A model generated the notes under the pieces. That model searched no databases. It saw only the letters and a list, made by a program, of their open reading frames with translations, and was not told where the DNA came from. A stretch of 64,000 nt of DNA from contig JAQWJE010000008.1 of the NCBI GenBank assembly GCA_029248525.1, positions 62,001-126,000 of the forward strand, written 5' to 3'. Both the position numbers and the translations under genes were made by a program. This document shows, in pieces, positions 26,314-37,126 of this stretch. How positions within the stretch are numbered: position 1 is the stretch's first letter; each line of letters starts with the position of its first letter. Source of the DNA: Candidatus Binatia bacterium (lineage in GTDB: Bacteria; Desulfobacterota; Binatia; UBA12015).

Positions 26314-27273
26314 TCATGGGGCGGAAGGGGCGGCGGCGCGGAACGTTTCGCGGATGAACTCGATACGCTCATGGGGCGATCGGTCCTCGTTCTGTTTCTC
26401 GATGATGGCAAACCGGTGCGCCAGGCCCGCATCATTTGCGATCTGGATATTCAGGCCGGGACGGGCATTGAGTTCCAGGAGCAGGGGGCCAAGCGTTCGG
26501 TCGAGAACGATATCGACACCGAGGTAGCCCAGCCCGGTCATTTCGTAGCATCGCGCTGCGAGGAGCAGGAAGGCCTCCCAGTCGGGAATAGACAAGCCCG
26601 CCAGAACAACATCGGTATCCGGGTGAATCTCGGTCCGTTCATTTCCCCAGACGCCGTGCAGGGTTCGACCGGAGGCGAGATCGATTCCGGCACCGATCGC
26701 TCCCTGGTGGAGGTTTCCCTTGCCGTCAGATTGTTGGGTCGGTAACCGGACCATCGCCATGGCGGGATACCCCTTCAGCACGATGATGCGGACATCGGGT
26801 ACGCCCCCGAAGCTGATGGCCTCGAAAAGAGCGTCGGGTTGAACGCGATGCTCGACCATCGCAACATCACTTTGGCCGCCCAGGCTGTACACCCCGCTCA
26901 GGATATTGCTGGCGTGGTACGCGAGATCCTCGAGGCCGACCCAGAAACCTTTTGCTCGTCGGAACCGATCGCCTCTGCGTGCCATGGCGATCAGAATGCC
27001 GTGTCCGCCCGCCCCGTGTGCGGGTTTCATCGCGAAGTCTTCGATGTCGCACAGAATTTCCGGCAAGTCGCGGGCCTCGCGTTCATTCGTGAAGGTGGCG
27101 AATAAAGGTGGCACAGGGATTCCATGTTCCTGCGCCAATTTCTTGGTCCTCAGTTTGTCGTCCACCAATGGATAGAGATGGCGAGGGTTGTAGCGCATGA
27201 CGAAATCGCGGTTCCGCTGGTTGATGCCCATGACCCCGCGGCTGCGAAGTCGTCGGTGAATGTTGCCGATCAT
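26314..27273 (-). CDS. Alpha-L-glutamate-ligase-like ATP-grasp protein
   Basis: 319-residue RimK-like ATP-grasp protein. It has KPAHGAGGHGILI in the ATP site, a MVEHRVQPDALF strand and the metal ligands in LELNARPGLNIQIAN. The RimK clan adds glutamate or related amino acids to peptides or cofactors. It is the third gene of the conserved trio: retropepsin-like protease, inactive transglutaminase membrane protein, this ligase. Each start overlaps the preceding stop by 4 bases (27270-27273, 28796-28799). The acceptor is unknown; a periplasmic or membrane-linked target is suggested by the neighbours. Confidence 0.88.
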   Translation of the reverse strand: MIGNIHRRLRSRGVMGINQRNRDFVMRYNPRHLYPLVDDKLRTKKLAQEHGIPVPPLFATFTNEREARDLPEILCDIEDFAMKPAHGAGGHGILIAMARRGDRFRRAKGFWVGLEDLAYHASNILSGVYSLGGQSDVAMVEHRVQPDALFEAISFGGVPDVRIIVLKGYPAMAMVRLPTQQSDGKGNLHQGAIGAGIDLASGRTLHGVWGNERTEIHPDTDVVLAGLSIPDWEAFLLLAARCYEMTGLGYLGVDIVLDRTLGPLLLELNARPGLNIQIANDAGLAHRFAIIEKQNEDRSPHERIEFIRETFRAAAPSAP

Positions 27274-28799
27274 GGTCGCGGGTCCGCGATCGCACGGAAG
27301 CGCAACAATTCGTTCAGGCGATACCCACGATAGGAACCTGCGAGGAGCATCAAGGCCATGATGACGAGCAGGAGGCCGGGGAAGGTGAAGACGAGATGGG
27401 TGAGGAGGGCGTTGGCCATCACCAGGTAGACGAGGGCTGCGGTGAACAGACTACCCGCAGCGACGAGGATGGCGGGCCATGCGCCGCGCTCCTCCCACGC
27501 GATCGACATGCGCTCGATCGTCATGGTGACAATCACCATGGGGAATAGCGCGACGGACAGGCCGCTTTCGAGGTCAAGGCGATGGCTGAGAACACTGACG
27601 CCCGCCATGATCAGCACCACCACGGTCACGACAACGGCGAGGCGCGGCACCAGAAGCAGGTGGAGTTGTTCCAGGTAGGCTCGCACGATCATGCCGATGG
27701 CCAGAAGCAGACTGAAAAGGACGATGCCGGCAAAAAGCTGCGTCTCGCGGAAGGACAGGGCGATCAGCGCCGGCATGAAGGTGCCGAAAGTCTCAATTCC
27801 CACAAAGCTGCGCAGGAAGACGATCAAAAAAACGCCTACCGGAATCATCATCAGGACCCGGTAGAGATCCTGCGTCCGCAACGGCAATCCGAAGAGGGAG
27901 AACTCGAACCATGGCGACCCCGAAATACGACCCGCTTCATTTGCCAGGGTCAGCGAACTGGCGTCGCTTCCGGACACGCTGAAACTTACGGTGGGAGAGG
28001 AAGCACCTTGCAGAGTCAGTAGTTTGCCGGTGCCGGCCCACCAGACCAGAAAGTCTCCGGAGTCCGTTCGCCTCGATTCCGGAGGGTCGAAATAGATCCA
28101 TTCTTCTCCATCGAAAGCACTCAAGAGGGTCTGCGGCATGGCATAGGAGCCTGTGCGCAAAGGCAGCACATGTACTTCCCGTGCGGGGATATTGGCCGAA
28201 TTCAGAACCAGAACCGCTGTCTTGGTCAGATTTTCGACGCTACGGTCCGAGCCCCGAAGAAGCTGTGCATTCTGGTCGGCCTCATCGTTCAGTCGCTTCA
28301 AGGCAGCTGCCGTGAAAGTGGCGATATTTCCCGATCGCCCTCGAATCTGGTCGAGGAGAGCCTGGATGGCGACTGCCTCGGGCCCATCGAGGCGCGGTGC
28401 GGGAACCGAGGCTTCTTGCTGGACGCCATCTGTATCCGGACTTTGCCGATTGGTGACCACGAGGCGATAATAGAGCGCCTGTGGACCGCTGGCGCGACGA
28501 ATCGACCAGATGCTCTCGCGTTGTCCGTCGTTTTTTTCGATCGTTACGCCGTAGTTCCGTGAAACGAAACTCTCACTCAGGTCGACGCGCTGGCCGTCGA
28601 GGTCCGGGGTCAGGAAGCGGGCGATCACCGGTCGTCCGGAGTCCGCCTTGAATTGAATCCGCGCCTCGACCGTCCAGAGGGTTTCGGTTTCATGTGGGAG
28701 GAGGGGCCAACCGAGGACCTTGTATTGGTAGAACGTCATCCCGAGACCTGTGGTCAGCAGAATGCTGACCAGAAGGAACAGGTGGAGATCTCTTCTCAC
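27270..28799 (-). CDS. Inactive-transglutaminase membrane protein (UUP1/7TM type)
   Basis: 509 residues. An N-terminal membrane anchor (LFLLVSILLTTGLGM) precedes about 270 periplasmic residues of transglutaminase-like fold without the catalytic cysteine context. The region ANIPAREVHVLPL, VYPP-like DGEEWIYFDPP, then seven hydrophobic helices (e.g. MIPVGVFLIVFLRSF, RLAVVVTVVVLIMAG, VFTFPGLLLVIMALML) match the family named 'inactive transglutaminase, 7TM'. Known partners of this family are an ATP-grasp ligase and a retropepsin-like protease, both present here. Its role is likely as a membrane receptor or scaffold. Confidence 0.85.
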   Translation of the reverse strand: MRRDLHLFLLVSILLTTGLGMTFYQYKVLGWPLLPHETETLWTVEARIQFKADSGRPVIARFLTPDLDGQRVDLSESFVSRNYGVTIEKNDGQRESIWSIRRASGPQALYYRLVVTNRQSPDTDGVQQEASVPAPRLDGPEAVAIQALLDQIRGRSGNIATFTAAALKRLNDEADQNAQLLRGSDRSVENLTKTAVLVLNSANIPAREVHVLPLRTGSYAMPQTLLSAFDGEEWIYFDPPESRRTDSGDFLVWWAGTGKLLTLQGASSPTVSFSVSGSDASSLTLANEAGRISGSPWFEFSLFGLPLRTQDLYRVLMMIPVGVFLIVFLRSFVGIETFGTFMPALIALSFRETQLFAGIVLFSLLLAIGMIVRAYLEQLHLLLVPRLAVVVTVVVLIMAGVSVLSHRLDLESGLSVALFPMVIVTMTIERMSIAWEERGAWPAILVAAGSLFTAALVYLVMANALLTHLVFTFPGLLLVIMALMLLAGSYRGYRLNELLRFRAIADPRP

Positions 28800-29365
28800 G
28801 AGTCGTTCTGCGGTTGGATCGGCGAGGCGGGGTCGCAGTTGGGTGCGACGTCGCTGCCGATCGAGGGATCGACCACCGCATCAAAATCGACAATCCCCGA
28901 ACGTCCCAGAAGCATCGGGAAAGCAAACCGGCTGCGGTCGGCCAGGTTGACCTCGATCTCCTTTGAGCGCCCGTCCAGGCAAGCGAGGATACGAACCACC
29001 GGGCGCCGCTCGTATTTTTTGCCGACGTTTTCTTCAGCAGCGCGATTCTTGATGCGTACCGAGCGGACGCGAGGACGCTCGAAGACCTTGTCGGTGTTGT
29101 TGGTCTTGTCGCGCACCCGAAAGCGCATCCAGGTCTTGCCCTCCCGTTTGAAAGTTTCGATGTCATGGGCGTCGATGGAAGAGGTCGTGGCGCCCGTATC
29201 GACGCGTGCTTCGAGGACGAGATTTTCGGGGAGCAATCGAATCTTTTCCGACCGACCAATCACGATCTTTGTCGGCATCGAGCTTGCCTCTGCGAGGGCA
29301 GTCGCGAGCACCGTGATCGCCAGGCTGACGAGGATTCTGTATGCCGTGGACTTTGAATCTTGCAT
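28796..29365 (-). CDS. Retropepsin-like (ATP-dependent zinc protease) family protein
   Basis: About 190 residues from the ATG at 29365. It has an N-terminal signal-like segment (ILVSLAITVLATALA), then the aspartyl-protease-like motif ARVDTGATTSSID, PRVRSVRIKN, a domain matching the RimK/LysX-linked aspartic protease family, and FPMLLGRSGIVDFD near the end. Retropepsins need only one Asp per monomer and dimerise. A longer frame opens at 29425, but the signal peptide favours 29365. It is the first gene of the trio, overlapping the transglutaminase-like gene by 4 bases. Confidence 0.85.
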   Translation of the reverse strand: MQDSKSTAYRILVSLAITVLATALAEASSMPTKIVIGRSEKIRLLPENLVLEARVDTGATTSSIDAHDIETFKREGKTWMRFRVRDKTNNTDKVFERPRVRSVRIKNRAAEENVGKKYERRPVVRILACLDGRSKEIEVNLADRSRFAFPMLLGRSGIVDFDAVVDPSIGSDVAPNCDPASPIQPQNDS

Positions 29366-29430
29366 CCGGGTTTCCTGATCGGGGCCGTTTCGGCCGTCGA
29401 TGACAGGGAAACTACACAAATTCACCTCTT

Positions 29431-30429
29431 TTAGCGACGTCCGAAGCCGTGCCGCCCCTGCGGGATCTCCAAAGTCGGGGGAAACCTCCGGATTTCGCTT
29501 TTGGGCAACGGCGCGAGGTCGTTGGGGCCTTGGGGTGCGAGCAGACTGGCGAGTTCACGAGCCTGTTCGCGGCCGACCGAGACTTCGAACATTCCGCCCA
29601 TATAAAAAGGCTTTTTTCGCGATTCACAGAAAGCGGCTGCGGTGAGGAGGTTCAGCACGCCGCCCATACGGGGGATTTTGAGATTTGCGGCAGCGGGATT
29701 GAGGTGATGCAGGGTGCTTTCCGGTGACTCGTCGGTCAATGCGGCATCGAGGCTGAATCGATCTGCCAGCGCGCCCGAGACCGGTTTGCCGCAGACTCCG
29801 GGATCTTCAAGCCAGGCCTCAAAAAGTATTTCAGCGGTTCTGCTTTGCTCGGCGGCGGTGCCGCGATGCTTGAAGTCCAGAACCTCGATGATGCCGAGGG
29901 CCGATAGCGAAGCCAGTGTCCTGGCAGGCCATGCCGGATCGAAATCGAGCTTCACGCCGATCTCCGGCGCCTCCTCCTGATGAGCGTGGAGTTCCGACAG
30001 CGGGTCGGCTGTGGCTCCAAACGAGCGAACGTAGCGGATTTCTGCGTAAGCGGTTTCGCAAAGCTCTGCGAGATTGGTCGAAGCTTGTTGCAGGGCAAGG
30101 TCAATTGCTGCCGACTCGATTGCGGCGCGGCCGTAGGCCTCAAGGGGGCTCCGGGCCAACTCCGCAGCGAAAGTCCCGAGCGAGGATCCCTCTTTCCAAT
30201 GGTGATTCTCGACCCAGGACCGAAAACGCTCATGGTCGGGTCGAGTCCACGCCACGTTCTCGCCAGATCCCGTCCCTCCATCGCCGAACAACTCGATGGT
30301 AGAGGAGGGTCTGGGCTCGCCGGGGTAGGAAGGAAGCGTCACCGCTTTGAGGTGAACGTCGGCCTTTTCGAGATGGAGCGGTAGCTCGACGAGACGTTGC
30401 CGCAGCAGCGCTGCGCGGGTCTCAGACAT
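29431..30429 (-). CDS. Enolase-superfamily enzyme coupled to the ergothioneine fusion gene
   Basis: 332 residues. An N-terminal capping domain includes IELFGDGGTGSGENVAW. A barrel follows with the candidate metal ligands in IEVLDFKHRG, EAWLEDPGV and AALTDES, in the order D, E, D/E typical of the mandelate-racemase/OSBS group. PRMGGVLNLL and MGGMFEVSVGR resemble the conserved C-terminal strands. The usual KxK acid/base on strand 2 reads KLD (VKLDFDP), so specificity should be unusual. The ATG at 30429 overlaps the egtD-egtB stop by 8 bases (ATGTCTGA). The reaction is unknown; involvement in ergothioneine or histidine-betaine chemistry is inference from coupling. Confidence 0.78.
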   Translation of the reverse strand: MSETRAALLRQRLVELPLHLEKADVHLKAVTLPSYPGEPRPSSTIELFGDGGTGSGENVAWTRPDHERFRSWVENHHWKEGSSLGTFAAELARSPLEAYGRAAIESAAIDLALQQASTNLAELCETAYAEIRYVRSFGATADPLSELHAHQEEAPEIGVKLDFDPAWPARTLASLSALGIIEVLDFKHRGTAAEQSRTAEILFEAWLEDPGVCGKPVSGALADRFSLDAALTDESPESTLHHLNPAAANLKIPRMGGVLNLLTAAAFCESRKKPFYMGGMFEVSVGREQARELASLLAPQGPNDLAPLPKSEIRRFPPTLEIPQGRHGFGRR

Positions 30430-32704
30430 CGGCTGCGAGTCGCAAGCCCGCGAAGATCTGACGCCGTTCCGGCAGATCCCAGTTGCGGAAGCTGTTGCGA
30501 GCCGCAACCGGACGGGTCGCCCACGAGCCCCCGCGCAAGACCCGATAACCCTGATCGAAATGCACAGCCGAGTATCGTTCGTAGGGGAAGGCGCGGAACC
30601 CGGGGTAGGGCAGGAATTCACTGCTGGTCCATTCCCAGACTCCGCCAAGCATTTGCTCACAACCAAAGAAGCTGCGGCCTTCAGGGAACGTGCCGTTGGG
30701 TAATGGATGCGGACCGTATTGGCCGAGATCCGCGAGTTCAGGGCTCGGCGGCAATTGTCCCCAGGGATACGTGCGTGGCTCGCCGGTCTCGAGGTCGGCC
30801 GAGGCGGCGACTTCCCACTCGAACTCCGTGGGGAGACGTTTCCCGACAAATCGGGCGTAAGCTTCCGCTTCAAAATACGAGATATGAATTACAGGTTCGC
30901 AGGGCGCCAGAGGACGTTCATGCCCCATCGCGGTGGTGAACCACTCTCCGCCGATCTGGCGCCAACCCAGCGGCGCCCGGATCCGGGATGCTTCTCGCCA
31001 TTCAACTCCGGCCGATGACCAGAACTGAGGATTTTCGTAACCTCCTGCTTCGAGAAATCCCAGATACTCCGCGTTGCTGGTGGGAGCTAGCGCGATGGCA
31101 AAACCCTCGATCTCGCGTCTATGGGCGGGTTTCTCGTTGTCGTAGGCAAAACCCTCCGTCGAGGCGCCAACGCGATACGACCCTCCGGGAACCAGGGTCA
31201 TGCCGGAATGCCCGGGCGTGGCTTTCTGAGCAACGCTTTGGCGGGCCGGATGGGGCGTGCTCTGCCAGGCGAGATCGTTCATCAGGCCGATGCTCTGGAG
31301 CATGGTTTCCTGATGCTGGGCCTCGTGCTGCGCCAGCATTTCGAGGACGAGTCCGTTCTCGAGGAGTTCCTCTTGATGATTCGTGGTCGGCCGGGCAAGC
31401 TTTTGCTCGGACGCCGCGCGAACTTGTCGCAGGGATTCCCATGCTCCTGTCGCGGTGGGAAGGTCCAGAGCGAGGCGTTCCGAACGGGGGTGGGCGGTTG
31501 CCTCGAACAGGTGGTCGGCCTGCGCGCGGGATGGGTCCCGCAGCACGCCGGTCGCCGCGTCAATCCACTGCTCCTCGAAATTGGCAATATGCCCCAGGTC
31601 CCAAACCATGGGGCTCATCAGGGGGCTGTGTTGCGATTCGAGCAGCGCATCGGGCAGGTTGGTCAGGATGCGTTCGGTCGCCTCTCGAGATTCCTGCCAT
31701 TGGCGAAGGGCCATATCGCCGCGTGGCTGCGGTGGGGTCACCTTTCTTGCGAGGAGGAGAGCAAATTGCGCCTGTCGGTCCGTAAAGGTCGCGACACTCT
31801 CAAATCCGTACCCCTCGAGTCTCTGCAGCATCGAATCGACGTGGAATTTTCGGCTGATCTCGGTGCGGATCGATTCACCTGCCGCAATCGAGAACTCCTG
31901 TCCGATGCTCGGCAGGTGAATGCGGGTGGCTTTCGGGAAGCGTGCGCTGATTTCGATCTGCTCTTCCCGCGGGTTCCAACGGGCAATATGCTCGATCTCG
32001 TCGACCTCGAGGTTGGTCCCGAGTTCCCGATTCATGCGGTGGAAAAGATTGCGCGTGAAATCGGCCGTGACGCCGGCCGCGTCGTCGTAGGCGGCCTCGA
32101 GGATATCGGCTTCCTTGACCAGGTCGATGCCGAGAAGAAAGCAGTCTCCGGGATAAAGGTTCTGGTCCAGCATTTGAAAGAAGGCCTTGAGCTGGGGTTC
32201 GGCCAGGTTGCCGATCGAGCTGCCGAGGAAAGCCACCGTTGCTGGCGAGAATTTGCGAAATTTCGGGAATGAGGCTTCGTAGGTTCCCGCAAGCGTTTCC
32301 AGCTCCAGACCGGGGAAAAGAGGCCGGAGAGTGCTGGCGGCACCGTCGAGAGCCTCCCGACAAATATCGACCGCTACGTAGGCGGCCTCGGGATGCTCGG
32401 ACCATGCCTCCAGCAAATGACGGGTTTTTGTCGAAGTGCCCGAGCCTAATTCAATCAGGGTTGTCGATCCGGCTGCGGCGCGGATCTCGGCGGCGTGCGC
32501 ACGCAGTATCTCGTCTTCCGCCCGGGTGAGGTAATATTCGGGGACCCGAGTGATGGCATCGAAAAGTTGCGAGCCGCGGTCGTCATAGAGATACCGACAG
32601 GGCAGGGTGCGCGGGAGACTCGCCAGGCCGCATGCGACGGCGAAGGCAAAAGCCTCACTCTCGGGTAACCTCTTGAGGGCCTGTGCTGTTGCGGTGGTAG
32701 CCAT
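30422..32704 (-). CDS. egtDB: EgtD-EgtB fusion, ergothioneine biosynthesis
   Basis: 760 residues from ATG 32704 (a GTG at 32719 would add five). Residues 1 to about 330 are EgtD, the histidine N-alpha trimethyltransferase: EYYLTRAEDEIL, SAM loop IELGSGTSTKTRHLLE, FLGSSIGNLAE and the IRTEISRKF substrate segment. The rest is EgtB, the iron-dependent sulfoxide synthase: a DinB-like part with DLGHIANFEEQW and HEAQHQETM (H-x3-H-x-E iron ligands), then the formylglycine-enzyme-like part with MTLVPGGSYRVGAS, GKRLPTEFEWE and RVLRGGSWAT. Fungal Egt1 has the same EgtD-EgtB order. No egtA, egtC or egtE gene is adjacent, so a cysteine-using route may operate. Confidence 0.92.
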   Translation of the reverse strand: MATTATAQALKRLPESEAFAFAVACGLASLPRTLPCRYLYDDRGSQLFDAITRVPEYYLTRAEDEILRAHAAEIRAAAGSTTLIELGSGTSTKTRHLLEAWSEHPEAAYVAVDICREALDGAASTLRPLFPGLELETLAGTYEASFPKFRKFSPATVAFLGSSIGNLAEPQLKAFFQMLDQNLYPGDCFLLGIDLVKEADILEAAYDDAAGVTADFTRNLFHRMNRELGTNLEVDEIEHIARWNPREEQIEISARFPKATRIHLPSIGQEFSIAAGESIRTEISRKFHVDSMLQRLEGYGFESVATFTDRQAQFALLLARKVTPPQPRGDMALRQWQESREATERILTNLPDALLESQHSPLMSPMVWDLGHIANFEEQWIDAATGVLRDPSRAQADHLFEATAHPRSERLALDLPTATGAWESLRQVRAASEQKLARPTTNHQEELLENGLVLEMLAQHEAQHQETMLQSIGLMNDLAWQSTPHPARQSVAQKATPGHSGMTLVPGGSYRVGASTEGFAYDNEKPAHRREIEGFAIALAPTSNAEYLGFLEAGGYENPQFWSSAGVEWREASRIRAPLGWRQIGGEWFTTAMGHERPLAPCEPVIHISYFEAEAYARFVGKRLPTEFEWEVAASADLETGEPRTYPWGQLPPSPELADLGQYGPHPLPNGTFPEGRSFFGCEQMLGGVWEWTSSEFLPYPGFRAFPYERYSAVHFDQGYRVLRGGSWATRPVAARNSFRNWDLPERRQIFAGLRLAADV

Positions 32705-35983: not shown

Positions 35984-37126
35984 ATGAAAGAGCTTCACTC
36001 GTTTGCACCGCCGAAACGTATTTTGATGGGACCTGGTCCTTCCGATGTGAGTCCTCGCGTTCTGGCTGCCATGGCACAACCAACGATTGGTCATCTGGAT
36101 CCCGCATTTGTCCGCATGATGGACGAACTGAAGGACCTGCTCCGGGCCACCTATCGCACCGAGAACAGTATGACATTGCCGATCTCCGGTCCTGGTTCGA
36201 TCGGGATGGAGACATGCTTCGCCAATTTGATTGAGCCCGGAGACACGGTGGTGGTTTGTCAAAATGGAGTCTTCGGCGGTCGAATGAAGGAAAACGTCGT
36301 GCGTATGGGCGGCGTGCCGGTAATGGTGGAGAACGAATGGGGCCGGGCCGTGAGCGCCGAAGATCTGGAGGCCGCGTTGATCGGGCACCCCGAGGCGTCG
36401 GTGGTTGCGTTCGTGCACGCAGAGACCTCGACCGGTGCACTCTCGGATGCCGAGACCCTGGCGGCCCTCGCTCGGAGGCACGGGTGCTTGACGATCATGG
36501 ACGCAGTGACCTCGCTCGGTGGGGTGCCCGTGGAAATTGATGGTTGGGAAATTGACGCTGTCTATTCCGGGACGCAAAAATGCCTCTCGGTACCCCCGGG
36601 GTTGTCTCCGGTGAGTTTCTCGGAGAAGGCCATGGATCGGCTGCGGGCACGAAAGACGCCCGTGCAAAGCTGGTTCGGGGACCTCTCTCTTCTGGACGGA
36701 TATTGGGCGGCGGGCGCCAAGCGTTCTTACCACCATACGGCTCCTGTGAACGCTCTCTACGGATTGCACGAGGGCTTATTGGCTCTGCAAGAGGAGGGGC
36801 TCGAGGCCGCATGGGCACGACATCGGGAAAATCACGAAGCGCTTCGCGTCGGGCTCGAGGGCATTGGTATCGATTTTGTGGTGCCGGTCGACGAGCGCTT
36901 GCCCCAGCTGAACGCCGTTTCGATTCCGGATGGCGTTCCCGATGCGGATGTTCGGGGCTTGCTGCTCGAAGAGTTCAATCTGGAGATCGGTGCAGGTCTC
37001 GGAGCACTTGCAGGGAAGGTCTGGCGGATTGGCTTGATGGGGACCTCATCGACGGCGGGTCATGTGGAACTATGTGTGAAAAGTCTTTCGGCGGCCCTCA
37101 GTCGGCTGTCGGCGGCCCGGGCCTGA
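35984..37126 (+). CDS. Class V aminotransferase, alanine/serine-glyoxylate type
   Basis: 380 residues matching alanine-glyoxylate/serine-glyoxylate aminotransferases along the full length. Segments are LMGPGPSDVSPRVL, SGPGSIGMETCFANLIEPGD, the phosphate- and PLP-binding SGTQKCLSVPPG (Schiff-base Lys) and VWRIGLMGTSST. It transfers amino groups between alanine or serine and glyoxylate, in glycine and photorespiratory-type metabolism. It begins one base after the thioredoxin-like stop, so they are one transcript. Desulfurase use is not supported. It overlaps the convergent CFA synthase gene by 29 bases. Confidence 0.9.
   Translation: MKELHSFAPPKRILMGPGPSDVSPRVLAAMAQPTIGHLDPAFVRMMDELKDLLRATYRTENSMTLPISGPGSIGMETCFANLIEPGDTVVVCQNGVFGGRMKENVVRMGGVPVMVENEWGRAVSAEDLEAALIGHPEASVVAFVHAETSTGALSDAETLAALARRHGCLTIMDAVTSLGGVPVEIDGWEIDAVYSGTQKCLSVPPGLSPVSFSEKAMDRLRARKTPVQSWFGDLSLLDGYWAAGAKRSYHHTAPVNALYGLHEGLLALQEEGLEAAWARHRENHEALRVGLEGIGIDFVVPVDERLPQLNAVSIPDGVPDADVRGLLLEEFNLEIGAGLGALAGKVWRIGLMGTSSTAGHVELCVKSLSAALSRLSAARA

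Follow-up and report, generated by a model that had tools for sequence, protein, structure and literature searches.

We analysed a window of 64,000 nucleotides from the genome of Candidatus Binatia bacterium (assembly GCA_029248525.1, contig JAQWJE010000008.1, positions 62,001 to 126,000), which carries, end to end, a fusion of the ergothioneine genes egtD and egtB and a gene for a protein of the enolase superfamily. By "the window" we mean this whole stretch, and positions are counted from its first nucleotide. The two genes and the residues of the enolase-like protein on which the argument turns are the following:

30422..32704, minus strand: egtDB, EgtD-EgtB fusion of 760 aa in one frame (ATG at 32704, TGA at 30422)
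31745..32641, minus strand: EgtD (histidine N-alpha-methyltransferase) half, residues 22-320 (PF10017, TIGR03438)
30434..31705, minus strand: EgtB (sulfoxide synthase) half, residues 334-757, with DinB_2 and FGE-sulfatase profile matches
30422..30429, minus strand: 8-base overlap of the egtDB stop codon with the start codon of the enolase-like gene
29431..30429, minus strand: enolase-superfamily gene of the muconate lactonizing enzyme (MLE) subgroup, 332 aa, start ATG at 30429; KxD/DxK subgroup, proposed pyridoxal phosphate (PLP)-independent C-S lyase
29944..29952, minus strand: KLD (K160-L-D162), where the canonical KxK acid/base pair would stand on beta-2
29869..29877, minus strand: DFK, with D185 at a metal-ligand position and K187 replacing the usual Asn
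29803..29808, minus strand: E208-D209, the metal-ligand Glu position and an Asp replacing the Gln of MenC-type rows
29746..29748, minus strand: D228, third metal-ligand position
29677..29679, minus strand: K251, the beta-6 lysine of NLKIPRMGG

Both halves of the fusion were recognised by profile search: the EgtD half scored 312.9 bits against TIGR03438 (cut-off 290.9) and 326.5 bits against PF10017, also above its cut-off, and the EgtB half scored 386.4 bits against TIGR03440 (cut-off 360). This agrees with the first-pass annotation of this DNA, which had read a single 760-residue frame bearing both enzymes and an 8-base overlap between its stop and the enolase start, the latter borne out by the coordinates. 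The annotation had also likened the fusion to fungal Egt1. The likeness goes no further than the fusion and its domain order: in a tree without fungal rows the EgtB half falls with mycobacterial EgtB, and fungal Egt1 uses cysteine (excerpts of PMC9103826 and PMC10903977). The iron-ligand positions of the EgtB half are H372, H460 and H464 (EgtB positions 51, 134 and 138), and the equivalents of Tyr377 (Y708) and of R87 and R90 (R407 and R410) of M. thermoresistibile EgtB are kept. A second EgtD is encoded in the source genome (G000:C27:111393-112289; 398 bits vs 316 bits for the fusion EgtD), which has a single EgtB match.

The enolase-like protein was scored weakly by family models (TIGR01928, 32.9 bits against a cut-off of 200.65; PF13378, 15.5 bits against a cut-off of 29.4), and its phmmer matches were enolase-superfamily chains, the best being 1wue (1.7e−7). 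The AlphaFold2 model (pLDDT 91.8, pTM 0.92; input alignment of 23 sequences) predicts a complete MLE-subgroup enolase fold with capping domain and modified TIM barrel, as judged by Foldseek and structure comparison. The 50 structure-comparison chains listed had Z scores of 26.7-29.3 over 298-314 residues, led by a probable o-succinylbenzoate synthase (OSBS; 3mwc, Z 29.3), an N-acylamino acid racemase (2zc8, Z 28.8) and the dipeptide epimerases 3ro6 and 3rit (Z 28.8); differences in Z of less than 1 were treated as ties.

In the enolase superfamily the second lysine of KxK and the beta-6 lysine form an acid/base pair. Thirty KxK-type relatives from a scan of contigs (described below) read KxK, DxN and EQ (the two of them scanned with family models exceed the cut-off of the MenC model TIGR01928); the enolase-like family reads KxD, DxK and ED. 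The second lysine of KxK is thus gone, and a lysine appears two residues past the first metal ligand. The metal-ligand acids D185, E208 and D228 align with acids in the 30 KxK-type rows and, like K160, D162, K187, D209 and K251, are invariant in all 23 rows of the family alignment (A2), so that both the plausible metal ligands and the KLD in place of KxK which had been noted at first pass are properties of the whole alignment. The same eight residues are present in all 50 Thermoleophilia rows (some of which are one gene fetched twice), and KxD stands for KxK in every full-length family member checked; A2 omits L037, which has a stop in frame, and L051 and L053 are fragments whose residue pattern was not judged. 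Of the hallmarks of the MLE subgroup, the fold and the three metal ligands are found, and of the lysines of the acid/base pair only K251 at beta-6. The family is a divergent, distinct subgroup and no standard MLE-type enzyme. It resembles N-acylamino acid racemase and N-succinylamino acid racemase/OSBS in fold (2zc8, Z 28.8; 1r0m, Z 28.0), in the three metal-ligand positions and in the beta-6 lysine within NxKxxRxGG, but differs from them in sequence (16-24% identity), in having KxD for KxK, DxK for DxN and ED for EQ, and in its linkage to egtB and egtD.

The gene pair is conserved. Among 98 related genomes, the source genome included, the enolase-like gene was found in 16, and each of the 16 loci has the EgtB end of the fusion immediately upstream of it (in G012 the fusion is split across two contigs). 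EgtD was found in 63 of the 98 and was fused, as read from match positions and open-frame lengths, in the same 16 genomes which bear the enolase; the other 47 had unfused EgtD and no enolase (Fisher: P = 3e−15, with genomes taken as independent). At 15 of the 16 loci there is a possible start codon that overlaps the stop of the fusion, real starts being predicted only: ATG at −5 in 3, GTG at −14 in 10 and other positions in L014 and L018, with none in L013. The overlapping GTG covers conserved codons, so the conservation of the start could be partly imposed by the upstream frame. Scanning genome contigs gave 59 loci, seven of which (L025-L031) were 99.7-100% identical to loci already counted. 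All four Gemmatimonadota loci found (L032-L035) have the enolase directly after an EgtDB fusion, which is partial at a contig edge in L032. At five Thermoleophilia-class loci (L043, L045, L046, L050 and L051) it is next to an unfused egtB, accompanied by egtD in L043, L045 and L046, and most other Thermoleophilia copies from the contig scan have no Egt gene in their flanks. Of 21 non-Binatia genomes with a family member, 19 had an EgtB match, 14 of them above cut-off. The first-pass annotation had proposed looking for the pair in other genomes and had held that its absence there would count against a common role; the enolase is next to egtDB at 16/16 Binatia-class and 4/4 Gemmatimonadota loci and beside unfused egtB in some Thermoleophilia, so this ground for rejecting the idea falls away.

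Since the best of its weak family matches is the MenC model TIGR01928, the enolase-like gene might be a menaquinone MenC (OSBS) placed here by chance, which we regard as highly improbable. MenD was above cut-off in 10 of 80 genomes, namely 7 Binatia-class carriers and three Thermoleophilia (G102, G158 and G172), so that 9 of the 16 Binatia-class carriers and all 4 Gemmatimonadota carriers are without it. Six MenD regions (source genome, G002, G005, G012, G060 and G102) each hold another enolase-superfamily gene. The one in the source genome is a separate MenC, 2 kb from MenD, which passes TIGR01927 narrowly (131.4 bits, cut-off 130.55) and reads KFK, DVN and EQ (L178 6502-7527, minus strand); it was checked by family model, and the other five, of KxK type, were read from tblastn rows among the matches listed. 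The enolase-like protein itself is missing the KxK catalytic lysine. We rejected the MenC/OSBS identity on the TIGR01928 score (32.9 vs 200.65 bits), the MenD distribution and the separate genes in the six men regions; the succinylbenzoate substrate which had been raised at first pass is disfavoured by the MenD distribution and by the separate MenC in the source genome.

EgtC and the enolase exclude each other in the genomes examined. With TIGR03442 at its cut-off, EgtC was absent from the source genome as a whole, from all 31 genomes with enolase and Egt genes and from the 4 enolase genomes without EgtB, and the TIGR03442 score in enolase genomes was at most 28 bits. EgtC passed the cut-off in 5 of 15 other Egt genomes; G041 reached 123.8 bits, below it. 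EgtA, EgtC and EgtE, which the first-pass annotation had found not to be adjacent, were not recognised in any window frame between 24 and 39 kb. We also sampled 150 genomes of Thermoleophilia, the class of G111. With presence set at a best E ≤ 1e−40, EgtB was found in 61 and the enolase family in 110; the enolase was present in 58 of the 61 EgtB genomes vs 52 of the 89 without EgtB (Fisher: P = 1.7e−7). At E ≤ 1e−20 it was present in 61 of 66 EgtB genomes, with G188 and G253 joining the exceptions on partial matches. The three Thermoleophilia genomes with EgtB and without enolase are G120, G222 and G184. In G120 and G222 egtC immediately follows egtB (TIGR03442, 209.3 and 224.5 bits; cut-off 218.65), and their EgtBs are sister to those of the enolase-bearing L197/L200 (100/100 in the EgtB tree). 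No egtC was found in the 17 enolase-bearing EgtB neighbourhoods (fetched stretches, some cut short by the end of a contig; whole-genome searches for EgtC cover 4 of the 17). EgtC and the enolase look interchangeable within one lineage, and their mutual exclusion points to the step after EgtB.

We therefore propose, at a little short of an even chance, that the enolase takes over the EgtC step, and probably also the EgtE step, through a PLP-independent beta-elimination on gamma-glutamyl-hercynylcysteine sulfoxide that is assisted by a metal. The gene pair would then be a compact ergothioneine pathway, in which EgtD makes hercynine by trimethylating histidine, and EgtB couples the hercynine with gamma-glutamylcysteine (gamma-GC) to give the gamma-glutamyl-hercynylcysteine sulfoxide. 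From the genomics and from superfamily chemistry we infer the substrate, reaction, metal, catalytic base and by-products of the last step. Enolase-superfamily enzymes take a proton alpha to a metal-bound carboxylate. Here the free cysteinyl carboxylate would sit on a divalent metal with D185, E208 and D228 as its ligands, K251 or the new K187 would take the alpha-proton, and the enediolate would expel the sulfenate by beta-elimination. The released ergothioneine sulfenic acid would be reduced by cellular thiols, and the co-product gamma-glutamyl-dehydroalanine would be expected to hydrolyse in water to glutamine and pyruvate. Because the amine of the acylated sulfoxide carries the glutamate, a PLP lyase is ruled out on this substrate, on which enolase chemistry would still be possible. 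A single enolase step would in this way replace EgtC and EgtE together, in line with the exclusion of EgtC. The fuller claim is of a new enolase subgroup in which a lysine seems to have moved from KxK to DxK and whose members are C-S lyases, dependent on a metal and independent of PLP, that cleave gamma-glutamyl-hercynylcysteine sulfoxide directly and so bypass EgtC and EgtE, yielding ergothioneine with glutamine and pyruvate as by-products. This claim we make more tentatively, with the odds leaning somewhat against it.

The dipeptide epimerases 3rit, 3ro6 and 1jpm share the fold (Z 28-29), and their substrates are N-acylated amino acids with a free carboxylate, as are gamma-Glu-Cys derivatives (the title of 3rit names an L-Arg-D-Lys complex); unlike in these enzymes there is no KxK pair here, and hence no standard two-lysine epimerisation. 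The fold of EgtE also differs from the enolase fold. EgtE is described in excerpts of PMC4493562 as cleaving hercynylcysteine sulfoxide with PLP to the sulfenic acid, pyruvate and ammonia, and the sulfenate of EgtE was trapped there with dimedone. The proposed route would share with EgtE and fungal Egt2 its outcome, ergothioneine via the sulfenic acid (same excerpts), but would differ in doing without PLP and in its acylated sulfoxide substrate. With EgtC, the gamma-glutamyl amidohydrolase, the enolase apparently shares its place in the pathway, as judged by mutual exclusion, but EgtC is an Ntn hydrolase (PMC9103826, in excerpt). We know of no amidase among enolase-superfamily members.

The type of EgtB bears on whether the glutamyl group is present on the substrate. 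The EgtB tree places M. thermoresistibile EgtB together with the enolase-linked Thermoleophilia rows (98/96); this tree omits L145-L147, L151, L152, L203 and L130, and duplicates and fragments were dropped from it as from the enolase tree. An RNWD segment common with mycobacterial EgtB was found in 30/30 enolase-linked rows of one alignment (several being second copies) and in 16/17 EgtBs of enolase-bearing neighbourhoods. In the EgtBs of other EgtC-bearing genomes (L137-L140, L142-L144, L148 and L149; nine rows) position 87 is K and position 416, which has a special role, is Y; the L134-L136 rows have FF. A GCS2 (gamma-GC ligase-type) gene was found in 30 of the 31 enolase and Egt genomes, the exception being a 1.4-Mb genome. 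According to a review (excerpts of PMC9103826), gamma-GC is bound in M. thermoresistibile EgtB by a pair of arginines (printed Arg87 and Arg89) that is also present in C. thermophilum EgtB. The C. thermophilum enzyme prefers cysteine (excerpts of PMC10903977). The RNWD segment appears more telling than this arginine pair on the type of EgtB.

If EgtB used cysteine, or if another amidase removed the glutamyl group, the enolase would replace EgtE only and eliminate the sulfenate from free hercynylcysteine sulfoxide. The Egt1-like domain order, the two-gene layout and the absence of EgtC in 31/31 enolase and Egt genomes would suit this, as would the arginine pair of the cysteine-preferring C. thermophilum enzyme (PMC9103826; preference from PMC10903977; both in excerpt). 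We nevertheless consider it unlikely, about one chance in a handful, as EgtB groups with the mycobacterial gamma-GC-type enzyme (98/96 with Thermoleophilia rows), the same-motif EgtBs of G120 and G222 travel with EgtC, and the ligands of the nearest folds, judged by their structure titles, are N-acyl amino acids or dipeptides.

The enolase superfamily includes betaine epimerases, and the enzyme might instead act after or beside the pathway, by epimerising hercynine or ergothioneine or converting them to a new derivative. Both are betaines with a free carboxylate, and K187 and K251 could act on opposite faces. Betaine-type ABC transporter genes lie near egt and enolase genes at 7/24 loci from three phyla (L034, L035, L168, L169, L170, L173 and L176); for L034, L173 and L176 Pfam confirms an OpuAC domain. 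We count these transporter genes in favour of the main proposal as well. Such chemistry would leave the mutual exclusion with EgtC unexplained, and of the readings weighed here we rate it improbable, below all but the MenC identity. The transporter is possibly an ergothioneine transporter like EgtU, by analogy with the system described in excerpts of PMC9732360.

Several observations weigh against a lyase that completes ergothioneine. The enolase family occurs in 52 of the 89 Thermoleophilia genomes without recognised EgtB (L114-L133 included), at least G102, G111, G112, G113, G216 and G219 have two family copies, and around the non-Egt Thermoleophilia copies (20 regions) we found varied surroundings and no consistent neighbours, as called by a simple GC3 gene caller which makes errors. 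Some family members so appear to have another role or to work with an unrecognised partner. The EgtB of L203 deviates from the RNWD motif, and R87/R90 are not diagnostic of gamma-GC use, because the cysteine-preferring C. thermophilum EgtB also has the pair (PMC9103826 and PMC10903977, in excerpt). G184, a 1.7-Mb genome, has EgtB without enolase and without EgtC near egtB, and few independent events underlie the EgtC contrast. We know of no C-S lyase in the enolase superfamily. The EgtE model TIGR04343 (cut-off 400) was passed in 0/98 and 0/150 genomes, with or without enolase, so the presence or absence of EgtE is uninformative as a test of complementarity, and a generic PLP lyase elsewhere could do the lyase step. 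In this respect an aminotransferase gene lies two called genes away from egtB in L203, which bears the enolase, and a class V PLP enzyme lies in the window at 35984-37126 (plus strand), 3.3 kb from the fusion start.

This class V enzyme is nearest to pyridoxamine-pyruvate transaminase (202.6 bits, cut-off 600). As it scores 30.2 bits for EgtE (cut-off 400) and its cluster was found in 4/24 loci, we did not adopt it as the lyase, though it may still be a candidate. Beside unfused egtB or egtD we found no consistent PLP lyase partner (20 regions, by eye, among the genes listed); the one PLP gene next to egtB, in L135, was nearest to CobD/HisC (268.8 bits, CobD cut-off 290.55).

The occurrence of the family without recognised EgtB in 52/89 Thermoleophilia genomes, in varied surroundings where inspected, would also suit an enzyme whose linkage to Egt is secondary and which catalyses another reaction, of a general N-acyl or cysteine-conjugate kind, on some unrelated carboxylate. 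We think this doubtful, roughly a one-in-seven prospect, given the strict egtDB coupling at 20/20 Binatia-class and Gemmatimonadota loci and the copies adjacent to Egt genes that branch close to the base of the Thermoleophilia group. In the enolase tree (70 rows) the 20 rows linked to egtDB cluster together (96/80), and so do the Thermoleophilia-class rows (99/98); three Egt-adjacent rows stand low in the latter group, near its base, L045/L046 being grouped with the non-adjacent L042; L130 (G243), tagged "other" in this tree, has egtB about 1 kb away. Egt linkage is thus found on both sides of the first split of the family, which suggests that it is ancestral. The role in ergothioneine chemistry which the first-pass annotation had offered as one option draws support from the conserved egtDB pairing and the EgtC exclusion, and sits less well with the many Thermoleophilia members without recognised EgtB.

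The oxygen-dependent ergothioneine routes described in excerpts of PMC10903977, PMC4493562 and PMC9103826 end with a PLP C-S lyase, EgtE or Egt2. In the literature searched (open-licence papers only) we found no joint mention of ergothioneine and the enolase superfamily, and the match for "enolase superfamily" with beta-elimination and cysteine concerns pentose metabolism. If the enolase is the proposed metal-dependent lyase, this would be a new reaction of the superfamily, as far as is known to us, and a new ending of the pathway. It would explain how ergothioneine could be completed without EgtC in Binatia-class bacteria, Gemmatimonadota and Thermoleophilia, and would offer a two-gene route for production strains.

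Directly downstream of the enolase gene (26314-29425, minus strand) lie genes for a retropepsin-like RloA-type protein (130.6 bits, below cut-off), an RloB-like inactive transglutaminase membrane protein (542.6 bits, below cut-off) and an alpha-L-glutamate ligase-like protein (TIGR02291, 431.3 bits, over cut-off). The RloB-like and TIGR02291 genes are common to 4/24 loci, the present one included. In L137-L140, L148 and L149 (family f5) we observed a recurrent order of a 'MDVLITCPSQRDR'-type protein, EgtC, EgtB and EgtD (named by eye), followed in some of them by an asparaginase-like ('TGGTIS') protein after EgtD, also named by eye. The 'MDVLITCPSQRDR'-type and asparaginase-like proteins may be unrecognised parts of the pathway.

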